Source: a virus. From it: a stretch of DNA of 43,050 nucleotides. Below, piece after piece: positions 31,588 through 38,411 of the stretch. The stretch covers positions 1-43,050 of the IMG/VR virus record IMGVR_UViG_3300048444_000433; one strand, given 5' to 3'. Under the pieces are notes generated by a model. The model was not told the DNA's origin and ran no database searches. It worked only from the letters and a program-made list of their open reading frames with translations. Numbering within the stretch: position 1 is the first letter of the stretch; every line of letters begins with the position of its first letter. Both the position numbers and the translations under genes were made by a program.

Positions 31588-31797
31588 TTAGGCGGCGTCA
31601 CCAAACACATCGGTCAGATCAGGTCGAAGATTTCCAACCGAAACTCCGAGAGCGTCCGCGAGTGCTTTCACCCGCGATACCCCGATCTTCCGTTGCTTGG
31701 CCTCGATGAGGCTAAGATGAGCGCGGGAAATACCTGCAGCCTTGCAGACATCTGCTCGCGACAACCCGTTCGAGTTGATATGTTCGGTAATATCCAT
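31588..31797 (-). CDS. Cro-like repressor
   Basis: The 69-residue XRE-type protein has an HTH at about residues 12-36 (LSRADVCKAAGISRAHLSLIEAKQR) and nothing else, typical for Cro. It is divergent from the CI gene, with 92 bases between the starts containing two operator sites. It should bind the same operators in a different order and commit the phage to lytic growth. Confidence 0.85.
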   Translation of the reverse strand: MDITEHINSNGLSRADVCKAAGISRAHLSLIEAKQRKIGVSRVKALADALGVSVGNLRPDLTDVFGDAA

Positions 31798-31805
31798 GTC
31801 AGTTT

Positions 31806-31820
31806 TTTACACTATGTGAA
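31806..31820. promoter_or_regulatory. Operator site 1 (CI/Cro control region)
   Basis: The sequence TTTACACTATGTGAA is an imperfect 15-base palindrome centred at 31813, related to the perfect TTTACAC-A-GTGTAAA site at 33425. It lies nine bases upstream of the cro start codon, overlapping the expected cro promoter. Confidence 0.8.
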
Positions 31821-31839
31821 TTTAGTCCGCAATAGGGAT

Positions 31840-31854
31840 TTTACATAGTGTTTA
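31840..31854. promoter_or_regulatory. Operator site 2 (CI/Cro control region)
   Basis: TTTACATAGTGTTTA is an imperfect palindrome centred at 31847, 34 bases from site 1. It overlaps a candidate CI -10 (CATAGT at 31845-31850, 17 bases after TTTAGT at 31822-31827 within one base). CI binding here would regulate its own synthesis. Confidence 0.78.
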
Positions 31855-31889
31855 TGGTCGGACCACCGACGGACGGGCATACACATGGG

Positions 31890-32498
31890 ATGAAATTCAA
31901 CATCCGTGAGCGGCGGAAGACCGCAAGCCTGACGCAAGAGGAGGTCGCTGACATGCTTGGCATATCGGTTTCGCTCTATAATGGCCTTGAGTCAGGCAAG
32001 CGCAGGATGAATGAGACCTACCTTGAAGGTCTGGCAAATATCTTCCGCGTATTTCCTTCCGACCTAATCATAGAAGAGCGCCCCACCGTCGCCATAGCTG
32101 GCGCAGTCGGCGCTGGCGCGATGGTCCCGGTGTTTGACGCCTACGAGAAAGGTGGCGGCCCGCAGGTCGAATGCCCGCCTCAGCTATCACCGCACGGCAT
32201 CGTCGCGGTCGAGGTCCAGGGTGACAGTATGGAGCCCGTCTATTCGGCTGGCGATCTGCTTTTCTACACGCGCGAGTCCGCTGACGGCGTTCCAACCGAC
32301 GCCATAGGCCACCGCTGCGTTTGCGAAGACATGAACGGCATGGGCTGGGTTAAACAGGTTCGTGCAGGCTCCGAGCCGGGGATGTTCAACCTGATCTCGC
32401 TAAACCCCGGCGCCGATAACCAGCATGACGTAAAGCTGAAATGGGCCGCGCGGGTGCGGATGCATTTACCGGCGGATATGGCGCGGCGGGCCGGGTAG
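31890..32498 (+). CDS. CI-like repressor with LexA-type S24 domain
   Basis: The 202-residue product has an N-terminal XRE HTH (about residues 5-40, LTQEEVADMLGISVSLYNGLESGKRR) and a C-terminal S24 peptidase-like domain. The serine (S113 in GDSMEP) and lysine (K155 in GWVKQV) of the autocleavage dyad are both present. An AIAG-type Ala-Gly site is near residues 70-71. It is expected to be cleaved with RecA help after DNA damage. The ATG at 31890 is preferred because a candidate -10 overlaps the earlier codons (31848-31856); the ribosome binding site is weak. Confidence 0.88.
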   Translation: MKFNIRERRKTASLTQEEVADMLGISVSLYNGLESGKRRMNETYLEGLANIFRVFPSDLIIEERPTVAIAGAVGAGAMVPVFDAYEKGGGPQVECPPQLSPHGIVAVEVQGDSMEPVYSAGDLLFYTRESADGVPTDAIGHRCVCEDMNGMGWVKQVRAGSEPGMFNLISLNPGADNQHDVKLKWAARVRMHLPADMARRAG

Positions 32499-33127
32499 TG
32501 CCTGGCTGGTCTGAATTTATTTCTTGGGTTGAAGCCCCAGCGGCCTATAACTGGATCACCTTGATAGGCGTTGCTGGGGGGCTTATGACCGCCGTTTTCA
32601 CAGGATATTCCGCTGGAACCCAGTGGGCTGACCGCCGCAAACGCGTGATTGCGGAATGGGATAGTCATTTATCGAATGGCATCTTGGTTGTGACGTGCAG
32701 CATTACCAACAAGACCAAAGGGACCATTACCGGCGAGGCCGTGGAGGCTTTTAAGTTCTCGCCTGAAATCAGGGTTTCTGGCGCGCACGAAAAGCACAAG
32801 TCGTGGGGAAAGAACCGCGCTCCGCTGAACCTTGCGATCCCTCCTGACCAAGCAGACCGGTTTTCAGTCTCCATAACGGCGGACCCGGACCAAGTACGCA
32901 AAGCGATGAACCGTTATTCATCTCGGCTCAAGGGATGGATCTCTAGGGCGTTGTGGTCATCGCTGCACTGGCGGGTCCCGCTTGGTGCGTCGATCTCCAT
33001 TCGCGTGACACTGCGGCGCAAGTCCTCAGAAATGCGGCCAATCCGCGTCACACATCGCATCAGGATGAACGAGGTAATTGTAATGCATATGGAGCAAAAC
33101 AGGGACGCCAAAGCGGCTGCTAAATAG
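32498..33127 (+). CDS. Membrane protein coupled to the repressor gene
   Basis: A GTG overlaps the repressor stop by one base (TAGTG), so it should be co-expressed in the lysogen. The 209-residue product has one clear transmembrane segment (about residues 19-37, WITLIGVAGGLMTAVFTGY). A cytosolic beta-rich domain follows (NGILVVTCSITNKTKGTITGEAVEAF...). It has no known motif. Membrane proteins expressed with CI are often exclusion factors, which is an inference here. Confidence 0.72.
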   Translation: MPGWSEFISWVEAPAAYNWITLIGVAGGLMTAVFTGYSAGTQWADRRKRVIAEWDSHLSNGILVVTCSITNKTKGTITGEAVEAFKFSPEIRVSGAHEKHKSWGKNRAPLNLAIPPDQADRFSVSITADPDQVRKAMNRYSSRLKGWISRALWSSLHWRVPLGASISIRVTLRRKSSEMRPIRVTHRIRMNEVIVMHMEQNRDAKAAAK

Positions 33128-33138
33128 GGCTCCATTAC

Positions 33139-33297
33139 CTAACCTCCGCTCAGAGCAGCCCAAAGAGCCAACACTAAGGCCACCAGAGACAGTCCGAATC
33201 CAAACAGTGATCGGTTTCTATTCTTTACGGCTTGCCGATATGCAGCCTCTGCGCGCTCGCGCCCTCCATCTACGTCGATCACAATATCCACCCTCAT
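33139..33297 (-). CDS. Small tail-anchored membrane protein (52 aa)
   Basis: This 52-residue frame begins with a basic/acidic segment (MRVDIVIDVDGGRERAEAAYRQ) and ends with a C-terminal transmembrane helix (about residues 33-51). It is convergent with the 32498 gene and lies near a leftward candidate promoter with perfect TATAAT (33381-33386). The ribosome binding site is poor. Function unknown; expression would be controlled by operator 3. Confidence 0.5.
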   Translation of the reverse strand: MRVDIVIDVDGGRERAEAAYRQAVKNRNRSLFGFGLSLVALVLALWAALSGG

Positions 33298-33302
33298 TTA
33301 AG

Positions 33303-33325
33303 CCCGCCCCAGTGGCGGGTTTTTC
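33303..33325 (+). terminator. Rho-independent terminator of the CI operon
   Basis: CCCGCC (33303-33308) pairs with GGCGGG (33314-33319) around CCAGT, followed by TTTTTCTTT. It lies downstream of the repressor and its coupled membrane-protein gene on the rightward strand, and separates this unit from the operators at 33390. Confidence 0.85.
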
Positions 33326-33380
33326 TTTGCCCGATGCCGTTCTGGTAGGGGTGTTGTAGCATGGGGTGGCGCGCTCTGGC

Positions 33381-33386
33381 ATTATA
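33381..33386 (-). promoter_or_regulatory. Leftward -10 element TATAAT
   Basis: Perfect TATAAT on the leftward strand, with operator 3 (33390-33404) in its spacer. The -35 is poor (GTAATT-like), so the promoter may need an activator or be weak. It would transcribe the 52-residue membrane protein gene at 33297. Confidence 0.5.
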
Positions 33387-33389
33387 AAA

Positions 33390-33404
33390 TTCACACTGTG
33401 TAAA
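33390..33404. promoter_or_regulatory. Operator site 3
   Basis: TTCACACTGTGTAAA, centred at 33397, differs from a perfect palindrome at one position pair. It is in the same family as sites 1, 2 and 4 and covers the leftward promoter region. Confidence 0.82.
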
Positions 33405-33412
33405 ATTACCGC

Positions 33413-33441
33413 TTGAACTGTTATTTTACACAGTGTAAATA
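33413..33441 (+). promoter_or_regulatory. Rightward early promoter (P_L-like)
   Basis: TTGAAC (33413-33418) is followed after 17 bases by TAAATA (33436-33441). The first gene of the rightward operon starts 32 bases later with a GGAG site. Operator 4 overlaps spacer and -10, so CI would block it directly. Confidence 0.65.
33425..33439. promoter_or_regulatory. Operator site 4 (perfect palindrome)
   Basis: TTTACACAGTGTAAA is a perfect 7-1-7 palindrome centred at 33432, 35 bases from site 3. The spacing repeats the 34-base spacing between sites 1 and 2, as expected for the same repressor at two control regions. Confidence 0.88.
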
Positions 33442-33473
33442 TTCTCCATACCAACCCGGTAATGGAGATGACC

Positions 33474-33782
33474 ATGCAAGCCCGCAGCACCTTCGAGACC
33501 CTCGCCCGCAACGCCGCGTATGTCGGCAGCGTGGCGGCTGTCAGCTACCGCACCGATGTGTGCGCCGCTGATGGCACATGCACCCCAGCCAGCGACACGC
33601 AGCACGACTTCGACGCTGGATATGACGACTTCGTTGAGAGCCACAAATGGTGGCCGCACCAAGACCTGATCTGCTGGGAGATTGCCTCCGACGGGTCCGC
33701 GACGGACGTGACCGATCGCATGATCTACGAGCACGAGTTGATCTGCGAGCAGCGTGGCATCGATCCGGAGTGGGGCGCATGA
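33474..33782 (+). CDS. Hypothetical protein, first gene of the rightward operon
   Basis: GGAG six bases before the ATG at 33474 supports a 102-residue product. It starts QARSTFETLARNAAYVGSVAAVSYR and continues as an acidic, tryptophan-containing domain (YDDFVESHKWWPHQDLICWE). No motif recognised. As the first gene from the CI-controlled rightward promoter it is likely made very early, a place where anti-host or anti-recombination proteins are often found. Function unknown. Confidence 0.68.
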   Translation: MQARSTFETLARNAAYVGSVAAVSYRTDVCAADGTCTPASDTQHDFDAGYDDFVESHKWWPHQDLICWEIASDGSATDVTDRMIYEHELICEQRGIDPEWGA

Positions 33783-33952
33783 AGATCACCTCCCTCCTCG
33801 GCGCCGAGTGGTTTGACCACATCTTCGCTCGTCGCAAGCCTGAGCCTGTCGATGACTTCCGTGATGTGCTGGATGACCTGTGGGCCGACCGTGAGGCGCG
33901 GAAGGATGCGGAGACACGCCGCGCCATCGCTTTCGATCTGGAGTGCGGATGA
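33779..33952 (+). CDS. Small acidic/basic helical protein (57 aa)
   Basis: The start overlaps the previous stop as ATGA and the stop overlaps the next start. The 57-residue product is helical and highly charged (FRDVLDDLWADREARKDAETRRA). Function unknown; the coupled position supports its reality. Confidence 0.6.
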   Translation: MKITSLLGAEWFDHIFARRKPEPVDDFRDVLDDLWADREARKDAETRRAIAFDLECG

Positions 33953-34455
33953 TGGGCATGATTGAGGATATCCGCGATGATCGTAAATCCGGAATGCCCG
34001 ACCTCGGAGGATGGGCATGGTTCGGAGGCCGAGACGACCTTTACCTTGCCACGAACCATGGCGGCAGACGGTATGTCATGGGATTTAAGCGCAAGGGTAT
34101 GCGCTCTGCCCAGCCCACGTTCCAAATTGGCGGCATCATGCACGGCGCCATTGACGACCTCACAGAATACGCCGTCGGAGATGGTGCAGCGCGGGGGCAG
34201 GCAGAAGCCGACAAGGACCCAAGCGTTTACCGGATGGACGTTAAATCTGTTGACCACCCTGACGCCCGCCGCATCGCCCGCGTTCCTGACATGGAAGCCG
34301 CGCTGCTTGCTGCGGAGGAACTGGCGACAGACCTGATGATAACGGCCAACAATGCAGCGGACGCGGCCAAGACGGACCCCCGATGGGAAGTCGTTGCCGA
34401 GAAGCTGCGCGCACGTCTCGCAACCTACCGCGCCGCGACCGGGGGTGCAGCATGA
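33949..34455 (+). CDS. Hypothetical early protein
   Basis: The ATG at 33949 overlaps the previous stop (ATGA); a second ATG follows at once, so the first residue is uncertain. The 168-residue product has a beta-rich first part (DLGGWAWFGGRDDLYLATNHGGRRYVMGFKR) and a helical, alanine-rich C-terminus. No known domain. Located just before the recombination genes. Confidence 0.68.
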   Translation: MMGMIEDIRDDRKSGMPDLGGWAWFGGRDDLYLATNHGGRRYVMGFKRKGMRSAQPTFQIGGIMHGAIDDLTEYAVGDGAARGQAEADKDPSVYRMDVKSVDHPDARRIARVPDMEAALLAAEELATDLMITANNAADAAKTDPRWEVVAEKLRARLATYRAATGGAA

Positions 34456-34658
34456 TCACCCAGTCCCACCCATCCCCCGAGGTGCAGCGCCAAGAGCGCC
34501 AGCAATCCCCTAAGCCCCGCGCCCTGCCCGTCCACATGTTCATCGCAGGCCTCGCCCTGTCGCTGGCTGGACTGCTGGGCGGTCACTTCGCCGCCAAAGG
34601 CATCGCAAATGCCGCCCATTTCAACGCGAACCATTTCATCGAAGGAGCTTTCGAATGA
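34452..34658 (+). CDS. Small single-TM protein (68 aa)
   Basis: ATGA overlap with the previous gene and another with the next. The 68-residue product is polar and basic at first, then carries a transmembrane segment (about residues 29-46, MFIAGLALSLAGLLGGHF) and ends with a polar tail. Function unknown; an early membrane protein before the recombination genes may affect the host membrane or exclude other phages. Confidence 0.62.
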   Translation: MITQSHPSPEVQRQERQQSPKPRALPVHMFIAGLALSLAGLLGGHFAAKGIANAAHFNANHFIEGAFE

Positions 34659-35791
34659 ACGATCAGACCCAAATTGAAACCGGAACGGCGCTTGCTCTGC
34701 CATCTGGCAGCAACCTAACCGCAATGTTCGCCAAGCCCGAGCAGGTTGATGACGTAATCAGTCGCATTGAGGCTGAGGCTCGCAGCCATGCGCCAGACCT
34801 GTCGACTGCCAAGGGGCGCAAAGCTATCGCCTCGCTGGCCCATACGGTCGCACGCAGCAAAACTACGCTCGACGCCGCCGGAAAGAGCCTCACCGACGAT
34901 GCACGGAAGCAGATTTCGGTGGTAGACGCCGAGCGCCGGAAAATCCGTGACCGCCTCGACGCCCTGAAGGCTGAGGTTCGCAAGCCTCTCGATGACTGGG
35001 AGGCCGCTGAGGAGAAGCGCGTTGAGCGCCTTAAAAATGCCTTGCAATCTCTCACACCCGCGCCGGTTCAGATGCTCGACACGGAAACCATCACTGCCGA
35101 GATCGACCGCATCAAGGCAATCACCATTGATGATGGCTGGGCCGAATACCAAGAGATCGCCGATGCCAAGAAAGAGCATGCGCTCACCGATCTGGCGCAG
35201 TGGTATGACGCCGCGAAGGTTCGTGAGGATCAGGCCGCGGAGTTGGCTCGCCTGCGCGCCGAAGCCGAGGAGCGCGCTCGGAAGGATGCCGAGGAAGCCG
35301 CGGCGAAAGAAGAGGCGGAGCGTCAGGCTCAGGCCAAAGCCGAGCAGGAACGTCTGGCTGCTGAGAAAGCTGAAGCCGACCGCATCGCCGCAGAAGAGGC
35401 CGAAGCCCGCCGGATCGAAGCTGAGAAGGTCGAAGCCGCGCGCCGCGAGCAAGCCGAACGCGATAAGGTCAAAGCTGCTGAGCGCGCCCGCAAACAGGCG
35501 GAAGAGGATGCCGCGCGCCGTGAGAAAGAGGCCGCAGAGCGCCACGCCCGTGAAATAGCCGAAGCAAAGCAGCGCGAAGAAGCCGCGGCCCAGCGTGAGC
35601 GCGACCGGATTACTGAAGAGCAGCGCCAATCTGATGCGGCCCGCGCCAAGCGGGAAGCTGATCAGGCGCACCGGGTCCGCATACGCAACGAAATCGCCGA
35701 TAGGCTCAAAACGCTCGATGCTGGCAACTGGTTTGCGCTGGCAGATGCTCTGATCGACGGCAAAGTACCGCACACGCGGGTGACGCTATGA
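34655..35791 (+). CDS. Long coiled-coil protein of the recombination operon
   Basis: The 378-residue protein has an N-terminal domain (about residues 20-130) rich in A, D and E. A long, uninterrupted alanine/glutamate/arginine coiled coil (about residues 180-345) follows, then a short C-terminal domain with GNWFALADALIDGKVPHTRVTL. Proteins of this shape commonly precede exonuclease and recombinase genes in phage operons. Candidates are a DNA-bridging or exonuclease-partner role. The repeat-like codon pattern also gives long antisense frames that are artefacts. Confidence 0.72.
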   Translation: MNDQTQIETGTALALPSGSNLTAMFAKPEQVDDVISRIEAEARSHAPDLSTAKGRKAIASLAHTVARSKTTLDAAGKSLTDDARKQISVVDAERRKIRDRLDALKAEVRKPLDDWEAAEEKRVERLKNALQSLTPAPVQMLDTETITAEIDRIKAITIDDGWAEYQEIADAKKEHALTDLAQWYDAAKVREDQAAELARLRAEAEERARKDAEEAAAKEEAERQAQAKAEQERLAAEKAEADRIAAEEAEARRIEAEKVEAARREQAERDKVKAAERARKQAEEDAARREKEAAERHAREIAEAKQREEAAAQRERDRITEEQRQSDAARAKREADQAHRVRIRNEIADRLKTLDAGNWFALADALIDGKVPHTRVTL

Positions 35792-36744
35792 ACCAGATGA
35801 ACTTAACCTCGGGCGTCTACCGCGACCTGTCAGACGATCAATACCACGCCGACCCGTCCGACCGCCCTAGCCTATCGAGCACACTCGCCCGTGTGCTGCT
35901 GAACCAGTCGCCGCTTCATGCATGGGTGCAGCACCCGAGGCTGAACCCGAACTGGGAACCGACCGACAAGAAGACCTTCGACATTGGCCGCGCGGCTCAC
36001 CGGGCGGTGCTGGGCAGGGGTGGCGATTACAAGGCAATCCCGTCTGATCTGCTCGCCTCCAACGGTGCAGCCAGCACGAAGGCTGCGAAGGACTGGATCG
36101 CGGAGGCTCGCGCCGCTGGCATCACGCCCCTGAAGGCCGAAGAGGTTGACCAGATCGGCGAGATGGCCGCGATTGCTGCGCAGCGCATGGCCGACAACGG
36201 CATCACGCTAGACCCGGCGAACTCCGAAGCTGTGGTGCTGGCTGAGATCGGCGGTGTTCCTTGCCGCGCCATGGTGGACAACGCGCCGACCGATCCATCG
36301 CAGCCGCTCTATGACTTCAAGACCTGCGTCGACGCCTCGCCAGATGCCTGCGTCCGGGCCGTGATGAACTACGGCTACGATGTGCAGGCCCGGCACTATC
36401 TCGACTGCTGGAAGGCCGCGACGGGCGAGGATCGGCTGTTCAGGTTCATCTTTCAGGAGAAGACCGCGCCCTACGAGGTCTGCGTCGTGCAGATGGGAAA
36501 TGAAAGCCTGATGATGGCGTCGAAGAAAACCGCCCGCGCCCGCGAAATCTGGGGCCATTGCACCCGCACCGACCACTGGCCGGGCTACCCCGATGGGGTG
36601 GTCAGCATCGAACTGCCCGAATTCTACCACGCGAAGTGGCTGGAGCGCGAGAGCGCCGAGGCCGACCACAAGCGCCATTATGGTCGCGACGTGCTGGATG
36701 CCGCTGGCCGCTGGCAGGCACCGGAAGGCTGGGCCGCGCAATGA
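35788..36744 (+). CDS. RecE-like exonuclease (PD-(D/E)XK)
   Basis: The 318-residue protein starts with the YqaJ/RecE-type pattern GVYRDLSDDQYHAD...LSSTLARVLLNQSPLHAW and later FDIGRAAHRAVLG. The nuclease core includes GGVPCRAMVDNAP...YDFKTCVDASPD, where D and the DxK pair (YDFKT) match the PD-(D/E)XK site. A helix YDVQARHYLDCWK follows, as in RecB-family nucleases. It should degrade double-stranded DNA ends for single-strand annealing, working with the Sak4-like protein. Its start overlaps the coiled-coil gene's stop (ATGA). Confidence 0.88.
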   Translation: MNQMNLTSGVYRDLSDDQYHADPSDRPSLSSTLARVLLNQSPLHAWVQHPRLNPNWEPTDKKTFDIGRAAHRAVLGRGGDYKAIPSDLLASNGAASTKAAKDWIAEARAAGITPLKAEEVDQIGEMAAIAAQRMADNGITLDPANSEAVVLAEIGGVPCRAMVDNAPTDPSQPLYDFKTCVDASPDACVRAVMNYGYDVQARHYLDCWKAATGEDRLFRFIFQEKTAPYEVCVVQMGNESLMMASKKTARAREIWGHCTRTDHWPGYPDGVVSIELPEFYHAKWLERESAEADHKRHYGRDVLDAAGRWQAPEGWAAQ

Positions 36745-37313
36745 TGTGCTCAGTTGCCTCATGTGACCGGGATGCTGTCGCCAAAGGATTTTGCAAGCTC
36801 CACTGGCATCGCAACCGGAGGTACGGCGATCCTGTTGCTGGATTCTACCAAGAAGGTGAAGGCCCGGACTGGCTAGCAGAACACGTTCATCATCAAGGTG
36901 ATGAGTGTCTAATCTGGCCCTTTGGTCGAAATGGCAGAGGGTATGGCGCAGTAGGCCAGGACGGTGATCGCGTTGGCGCGCATCGTGCGATGTGCATCCT
37001 TGCTCACGGCCAGCCGCCGACACCCGAACACCACGCCGCGCACTCATGCGGAAACGGCCACCTTGGGTGCGTCCACCCAGGTCACCTTTCATGGCGAACC
37101 CCCGCAGAGAACCAGCAGGACCGGCTCAAGCACGGAACATCGTCACGCGGCACAGGCAATGCCTGCGCCAAGATCAATGAAAGCCAAGTTCGAGAAATTC
37201 GGAGACGGCTGGCCTCTGGAGAAACGAACGTCTCAATCGCCGAAGATTACGACCTAACCCATTACGCCGTGTCCGCGATCAAACGTCGCAAGACATGGGC
37301 GTGGCTAACATAG
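36741..37313 (+). CDS. HNH endonuclease (homing type)
   Basis: The 190-residue protein begins with a treble-clef-like cluster (CSVASCDRDAVAKGFCKLHWHR). The HNH_3 core is GAHRAMCILAHGQPPTPEHHAAHSCGNGHLGCVHPGHLSWRT (about residues 78-120), with the catalytic histidines and the N/C framework. The C-terminal part has an HTH-like motif (REIRRRLASGETNVSIAEDYDL). These enzymes nick DNA and are often mobile within phage genomes. It is placed between recombination genes and shares an ATGA overlap with RecE-like. Confidence 0.88.
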   Translation: MMCSVASCDRDAVAKGFCKLHWHRNRRYGDPVAGFYQEGEGPDWLAEHVHHQGDECLIWPFGRNGRGYGAVGQDGDRVGAHRAMCILAHGQPPTPEHHAAHSCGNGHLGCVHPGHLSWRTPAENQQDRLKHGTSSRGTGNACAKINESQVREIRRRLASGETNVSIAEDYDLTHYAVSAIKRRKTWAWLT

Positions 37314-37322
37314 GAGAAAGCC

Positions 37323-38411
37323 ATGAGCGTTATCCGCTTCACTCCCGTTTCCGAGATTACCGAACCCCTCAACCTTGCGATTGGCCTGTCGGGTGGTTCC
37401 GGCACCGGCAAGACATACTCTGCCCTGCTAATCGCCCGCGGCATCGCCGAAGTGGTCACAGGCCGTAAGGGCGCGCCTATCGGGTTCATCGACACTGAGA
37501 ACCGCCGAGCGCTGCATTACAAGGCGGCGTTCCCTGAAATGGTTCACTGCGACATGCGCGCCGATGATGAGAACGGCAATATCGTCGGGTTCGGCCCTGA
37601 GCGCTGGATCGAATACATCGACGCCGCAGAGGCTGCAGAGCTTCCGGTGATCGTGATCGACAGCTTCAGCCACTCGCACGAAGGCGTCGGCGGTATGCTC
37701 GACCTTCATGCCACCACGCTGGACCGTCTGGCCGGTGATGATGCAAACCAGCGCGACAAGCGTTCGCAGCTGGCTTGGGCCGAAGTGAAGCCACGCTTTC
37801 GCCGCCTGACGGACCGGATCATCCGGGCCAAGACCAACATCATCATTTGCACCCGCGCCAAGCCTGTGATGCAGCGCGGCTATGGCAACAGCGCGAAGAA
37901 CGCCCGCCCGACCAAGCTGCGCCGCGAGGATGTGCCATGGGATATTGCCGGTGACGCCTCCCTGATCTTCGAAATGACTACACAGATCATCCTTGATCCA
38001 TCGGCGCCGGGTTGTCCCGTTCACCAGATCAAAGTAGCCGACCAGTTCAAAGCCATGCTCGATCCGCGCCGCCCGATGGGCGTTGAGACAGGCCGCGCCA
38101 TGGCAACCTGGGCGAAGGGCCAAGGTGACGCGCAGGCACAGAAGGAACTGCTCGACGCGGCCCGCACCATCGCCCGCACTGGGAAAGAGAAGTTCACCGC
38201 CCACTGGCAGAGCCTCGACAAACCGCAGCGGGCTATCGTGGCAACCATCATGGATGAATTGCAGCAGTTGGCGGTTGAGGCTGACGCGGTGCAGGACGTT
38301 GACGATGAGGATCCATTCGCCAGCGCCAAACCCACCTCCGAAGAGATAGCGGCCGCTGAAGAAGCTGCGCGCGCGGCGGCTGATGCGCAGGATCAGGAGG
38401 ACGCGGCGTGA
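37323..38411 (+). CDS. Sak4-like RecA-family recombination ATPase
   Basis: The 362-residue protein has Walker A GGSGTGKT (residues 24-31) and Walker B VIVID (109-113), followed by a histidine-rich switch (SFSHSHEG). That is the single-domain RecA/Rad51-like fold of phage Sak4 proteins. The family promotes single-strand annealing with SSB. An acidic C-terminal tail is rich in E, D and A (about 320-362). The ribosome binding site AGGAGA is five bases upstream. Confidence 0.87.
   Translation: MSVIRFTPVSEITEPLNLAIGLSGGSGTGKTYSALLIARGIAEVVTGRKGAPIGFIDTENRRALHYKAAFPEMVHCDMRADDENGNIVGFGPERWIEYIDAAEAAELPVIVIDSFSHSHEGVGGMLDLHATTLDRLAGDDANQRDKRSQLAWAEVKPRFRRLTDRIIRAKTNIIICTRAKPVMQRGYGNSAKNARPTKLRREDVPWDIAGDASLIFEMTTQIILDPSAPGCPVHQIKVADQFKAMLDPRRPMGVETGRAMATWAKGQGDAQAQKELLDAARTIARTGKEKFTAHWQSLDKPQRAIVATIMDELQQLAVEADAVQDVDDEDPFASAKPTSEEIAAAEEAARAAADAQDQEDAA

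Follow-up and report, generated by a model that had tools for sequence, protein, structure and literature searches.

The 43-kb virus record analysed here over its full length of 43,050 nucleotides (the window) in all likelihood carries a lambda-type CI/Cro immunity switch, with CI dimers acting on four 15-bp palindromes at both early promoters. These four sites are very probably where the repressor of the window binds to keep this phage of marine bacteria dormant. The features on which this reading is based are the following.

31588..31797, minus strand: cro-like HTH gene, 69 aa, first of the leftward operon (HTH_3 1.4e-10; PHROG transcriptional regulator)
31804..31809, minus strand: putative PR -10, TAAAAA, read from sequence; 17-bp spacer
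31806..31820, unstranded: operator O_R1, TTTACACTATGTGAA, 2 mismatches to TTTACACNGTGTAAA; 25.8 bits; over the spacer and -10 of the leftward (cro) promoter
31827..31832, minus strand: putative PR -35, TTGCGG, with TTG 12 bp before O_R1
31840..31854, unstranded: operator O_R2, TTTACATAGTGTTTA, 3 mismatches to TTTACACNGTGTAAA; 20.1 bits; 7 bp upstream of the cro promoter -35
31890..32498, plus strand: cI repressor gene, 202 aa, HTH and S24 (HTH_3 1.5e-10; Peptidase_S24 4.8e-8; phrog_4 7.7e-18)
32498..33127, plus strand: cargo ORF, 209 aa, between the operator regions; no family found
33300..33322, plus strand: terminator-like hairpin with T run, ending the cI/cargo unit before PL
33390..33404, unstranded: PL upstream operator, TTCACACTGTGTAAA, 1 mismatch to TTTACACNGTGTAAA; 23.7 bits; 8 bp before the -35
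33413..33418, plus strand: putative PL -35, TTGAAC, read from sequence and conserved register
33425..33439, unstranded: PL downstream operator, TTTACACAGTGTAAA, 0 mismatches to TTTACACNGTGTAAA; 24.8 bits; over the spacer and -10
33436..33441, plus strand: putative PL -10, TAAATA, read from sequence; 17-bp spacer
33462..38411, plus strand: start of the rightward early operon (small ORFs, a phrog_1376 protein, a RecE/exonuclease VIII-like protein and an AAA ATPase)

Four probable operator sites in the window

The operator family has the 15-bp palindrome TTYACAYWRTGTRAA as its consensus. All four sites occupy the positions and share the frame given in the initial annotation of this DNA, which had also correctly singled out TTTACACAGTGTAAA (33425-33439), symmetric around its central base, as a perfect palindrome and put the pair spacing at 34-35, measured here as 34 bp (31806/31840) and 35 bp (33390/33425) from start to start. 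It had further described the first pair as flanking the cro and cI starts; the sites are indeed located there, but rather than flanking the two start codons both lie between them. The weakest site of the window is that at 31840, whose half facing cI is degenerate, in the relatives as well.

As the sites are short and the promoters AT-rich, a resemblance arising by chance or from AT-rich intergenic sequence was considered. However, with up to 3 mismatches to TTTACACNGTGTAAA allowed, the window contained these four matches only, compared to a mean of 0.34 matches and never 4 in 100 dinucleotide-preserving shuffles; the chance recurrence elsewhere in the window that would have spoken against a specific motif was not seen. 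Bit scores come from a matrix for which 36 sites in nine relatives were used, the window being left out to avoid circularity, and this relatives-only matrix ranked the four sites 1 to 4 (20.1-25.8 bits), with the fifth-best position at 4.9 bits and a gap of 15 bits. In whole host genomes (4.7-5.4 Mb), which are nearly free of the family motif at a threshold of at most 1 mismatch, the prophage immunity region holds 4/4, 3/3, 2/2 and 2/3 of the matches. Together with the conservation of the four sites and their spacing in ten phages, the shuffles and the host-genome scarcity computationally refute a chance or AT-rich origin, to which we assign a negligible likelihood.

Relatives of the window CI were found in viral contigs and Rhodobacteraceae genomes, e.g. 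of Tritonibacter, Roseivivax and Sulfitobacter. Ten phages closely share the CI N-terminal domain (type A: the window, L006-L010, L025, L069, L070 and L102/L083; L005, L026 and L027 being near duplicates, and L069 and L070 closely resembling each other). Scanning these related prophages, as had been proposed, recovered four sites with the same spacings in all ten, a 34-bp pair upstream of cI and a 35-bp pair downstream. A search of viral contigs with a longer conserved promoter pattern returned a near-identical contig only, and a distant blastn search of the PL region against phage records gave no match.

Common layout of the early promoters

Read on its own strand, each early promoter consists of an operator, 7 bp (PR) or 8 bp (PL), the TTG of the -35, and a second operator that begins exactly 12 bp after the first TTG base and spans the spacer and the -10. 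The -35 TTG stands at this fixed 12-bp register in all 20 promoters of the ten phages, and PR differs from PL by 1 bp, in the gap that separates the upstream operator from the -35. Since a strict consensus scan reported no sigma-70 promoter at PR or PL, the -35 and -10 hexamers are putative assignments from register and conservation. The cro start codon (31795-31804 region) lies only ~7 bases past the putative -10, and the cro mRNA is therefore probably leaderless or nearly so.

The predicted structure of CI (mean pLDDT 87) had lambda repressor 3bdn as its best PDB match; a PDB sequence search with CI gave one HTH match only. An alternative in-frame cI start is present at 31854. In nine type-A loci an ATG or GTG is found at the O_R2 end, in frame with cI and 12 codons upstream of the conserved Met (31854-31889 in the window). 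A hairpin and this in-frame 12-codon extension just upstream of cI were set aside as candidate features, given a weak codon-position test (193/181/245 differences) and a frame that is closed in L121. On the sequence, the cI start is ambiguous between 31854 and 31890.

Genes in the slot between cI and PL mostly differ among the phages (window, L006, L008, L009, L010, L025, L069, L070 and L083). They include a ClpP-like protease in L008, a RhuM-family/PADLOC PDC-S05 candidate defence protein in L009 and small lipoprotein-like ORFs in L010 and L083, while the slot is empty in L121. It thus appears as a rex-like cargo slot.

The motif is inherited with the CI N-terminal domain

Natural domain swaps point to the protein that binds these sites. 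About 25 Rhodobacteraceae prophages combine the C-terminal domain of the window CI with unrelated HTH domains, and in these the window motif is missing. C-terminal identity to the window CI is 80-87% for L011 (87%), L029 (86%), L012 (84%), L013 (84%), L103 (81%) and L028, with no meaningful N-terminal similarity, but only 68-77% for CIs with the same N-terminal domain. As the C-terminal domain is closer to CIs with different HTHs than to those with the same one, cI has evidently recombined near the linker. The motif counts follow the N-terminal domain: each of nine same-HTH loci has 4 sites and 22 others have 0 or 1, the only stray match among the different-HTH loci being in L012. L121 represents the reverse case, with N-terminal identity of 66% and C-terminal identity of 39%, and has kept the motif at both regions, with three sites at the same threshold. 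Motif and CI N-terminal domain thus go together in both directions. In addition, the diverged C-terminal domain of the L121 cI (same locus as L031) lacks the conserved cleavage Ser/Lys and Ala-Gly, which suggests that this repressor is not SOS-cleavable.

Because the motif follows the N-terminal domain against CI's own C-terminal domain, CI is the predicted binder. Alternatively, the sites could be mainly or exclusively Cro operators, with CI acting elsewhere, and loci with the motif do also encode relatives of the window Cro (53-74% identity). Cro alone would, however, leave unexplained why the motif tracks one CI domain and not the other; moreover, the interval between the cro and cI genes showed no further repeated palindrome, and in the lambda precedent both proteins use the same sites. 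We regard the Cro reading as very improbable. CI control of both operator regions, as the initial annotation had proposed, is instead strongly supported by this comparison and by the layout shared between the two promoters.

Most prophages with other HTH types carry their own paired palindromes

In the wider set, CIs with one shared C-terminal domain carry about ten different HTH domains. For these other types, palindromes were identified near cI and those alone were then used for the downstream search. In most different-HTH prophages, a palindrome of their own is found at PR and at PL alike. Of 18 loci tested, among them the window and L121, 16 had a best downstream pair that scored above every one of 200 shuffles (29-48 bits versus a shuffle maximum of about 16-23), with the reservation that PR palindromes of other types were picked partly by recurrence within the locus and those tests were not fully blind. 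A matching pair 7.1 kb downstream with 34-bp spacing makes L104 the 17th locus; L106, whose contig ends early, had no downstream pair. De novo, a clear palindrome pair was not found in L012, L028, L029, L107, L114, L116, L118, L119 and L120, some of which show only partial matches to the motifs of other types.

Several other-HTH types have three PR sites and two PL sites, the latter spaced 28-31 bp. In L013, L015, L105, L108, L109, L110 and L117, all with other HTHs, PR has three operators at spacings of 23-24 and 33-35 bp, which comes close to the arrangement of lambda OR. PR and PL change in matching fashion although the conserved part of cI and a cargo gene separate them, which argues for selection by the repressor.

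Proposed switch mechanism

Sequence comparison shows the sites, how they are spaced, their register with the promoters and their inheritance together with the CI N-terminal domain, and from there we infer binding itself, autoregulation, cooperativity, Cro competition and SOS induction. CI dimers would bind the four 15-bp palindromes via the N-terminal HTH. At each early promoter they would occupy one operator that spans the spacer and -10 and another immediately before the -35, and would thereby shut RNA polymerase out of cro and the leftward operon (PR-like) and of the recombination functions and the rightward operon (PL-like). The operator over the spacer and -10 would block, and the upstream operator would help. 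The 31840 site has a degenerate cI-side half and overlaps the likely cI transcription start; its function is therefore probably cI autoregulation, comparable to that of lambda OR3. Cro is likely to compete with CI for the four sites. The S24 domain of the window CI keeps the cleavage Ser, Lys and Ala-Gly, and DNA damage should accordingly inactivate CI by cleavage, releasing both operons.

Cooperative CI binding, also part of the initial prediction (which mentioned looping as a possibility), is plausible. CI looping over the 1.6 kb between the two regions is possible in view of the precedents of lambda, whose two-operator pairs (2+2) can loop through a CI octamer, and of HK022, for which loops were reported (PMC8053113). 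The strictly conserved 34/35-bp pair spacing fits cooperativity and fits a fixed promoter geometry as well. CI might thus bind as independent dimers, with no cooperativity and no looping, and the spacing would then reflect promoter geometry. This would agree with a downstream operator locked to the promoter in 20/20 cases and with a PR/PL difference that amounts to 1 bp and affects just the gap from the upstream operator to the -35. It would agree also with PR-PL distances that show no robust helical phasing in the close set (0.8-2.2 kb; R 0.11-0.55 by assumed period) and extend over 0.8-7.1 kb across the wider family. A further parallel is the lambdoid 933W repressor, for which apparently non-cooperative binding to adjacent sites has been reported (PMC3317979). 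However, the upstream site lies off the promoter core and yet keeps one spacing per promoter in ten of ten phages, and almost all HTH types repeat the paired arrangement at both regions. The closest fold with a solved structure, lambda CI, moreover forms tetramers and octamers. On balance we consider independent dimers somewhat improbable. A more specific version of the cooperative reading is that the 2+2 switch with its fixed 34- and 35-bp pairs represents a distinct cooperative geometry, in which CI dimers would sit one helical turn further apart than those of lambda and the 31806 site alone would both block PR and support cI transcription, the work of lambda OR1 and OR2 together; this is a tentative proposal and rather unlikely to hold.

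Comparison with known immunity systems

By sequence-only tests, the very probable target of a Rhodobacteraceae prophage repressor can be named; in a study of temperate Sulfitobacter phages the switch repressors were left as future targets (PMC7305329). Operators at two places change together with the HTH, across a conserved cI part and a cargo gene. This yields testable predictions on which of these phages share immunity and provides a natural collection of repressors with their operators on which specificity and looping can be studied.

The window resembles lambda (OL-rex-cI-OR-cro) in a CI composed of HTH and S24 domains, in divergent cI and cro genes with shared operators between them, in operators at the two early promoters that flank the immunity region, and in a variable gene that takes the place of rexAB between cI and PL. 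Unlike lambda, it has two operators in each region, not three; the sites are 15 bp long and lie 34-35 bp apart, where the lambda spacing is about two helical turns; the operator sequence is another one and the host belongs to the Rhodobacteraceae. The three-operator plan of lambda is not matched in the window, where the next-best site scores 4.9 bits and the lambda-like switch would take a two-operator form, whereas several other-HTH relatives show three sites at PR. The lambdoid phages HK022 and phiKO2, whose repressors were tested for looping in vivo (PMC8053113), likewise have OL and OR apart across the immunity region (about 0.7 kb in HK022), but their operator sequences are unrelated to those of the window. 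Paracoccus phage vB_PyeM_Pyei1 (MK291445) encodes a CI whose C-terminal domain is related (51% identity in the aligned portion), and palindrome pairs lie on both sides of its cI, upstream as well as downstream; its HTH is different, however, its operator is AATGGGGGAACTCCCCCATT and its pair spacings are 26 and 29 bp. Rhizobium phage 16-3, an alphaproteobacterial temperate phage with a characterised C repressor and operators OL and OR, has operator half-sites that seem to differ from those of the window. Our literature search found no description of the operators reported here. Lambda-type dual operator control is already known as a kind; new with respect to the searched literature are the sequence of the operators, their 2+2 arrangement at spacings of 34/35 bp and, in Rhodobacteraceae prophages, a set of operator pairs that go with the CI N-terminal domain when it is exchanged.
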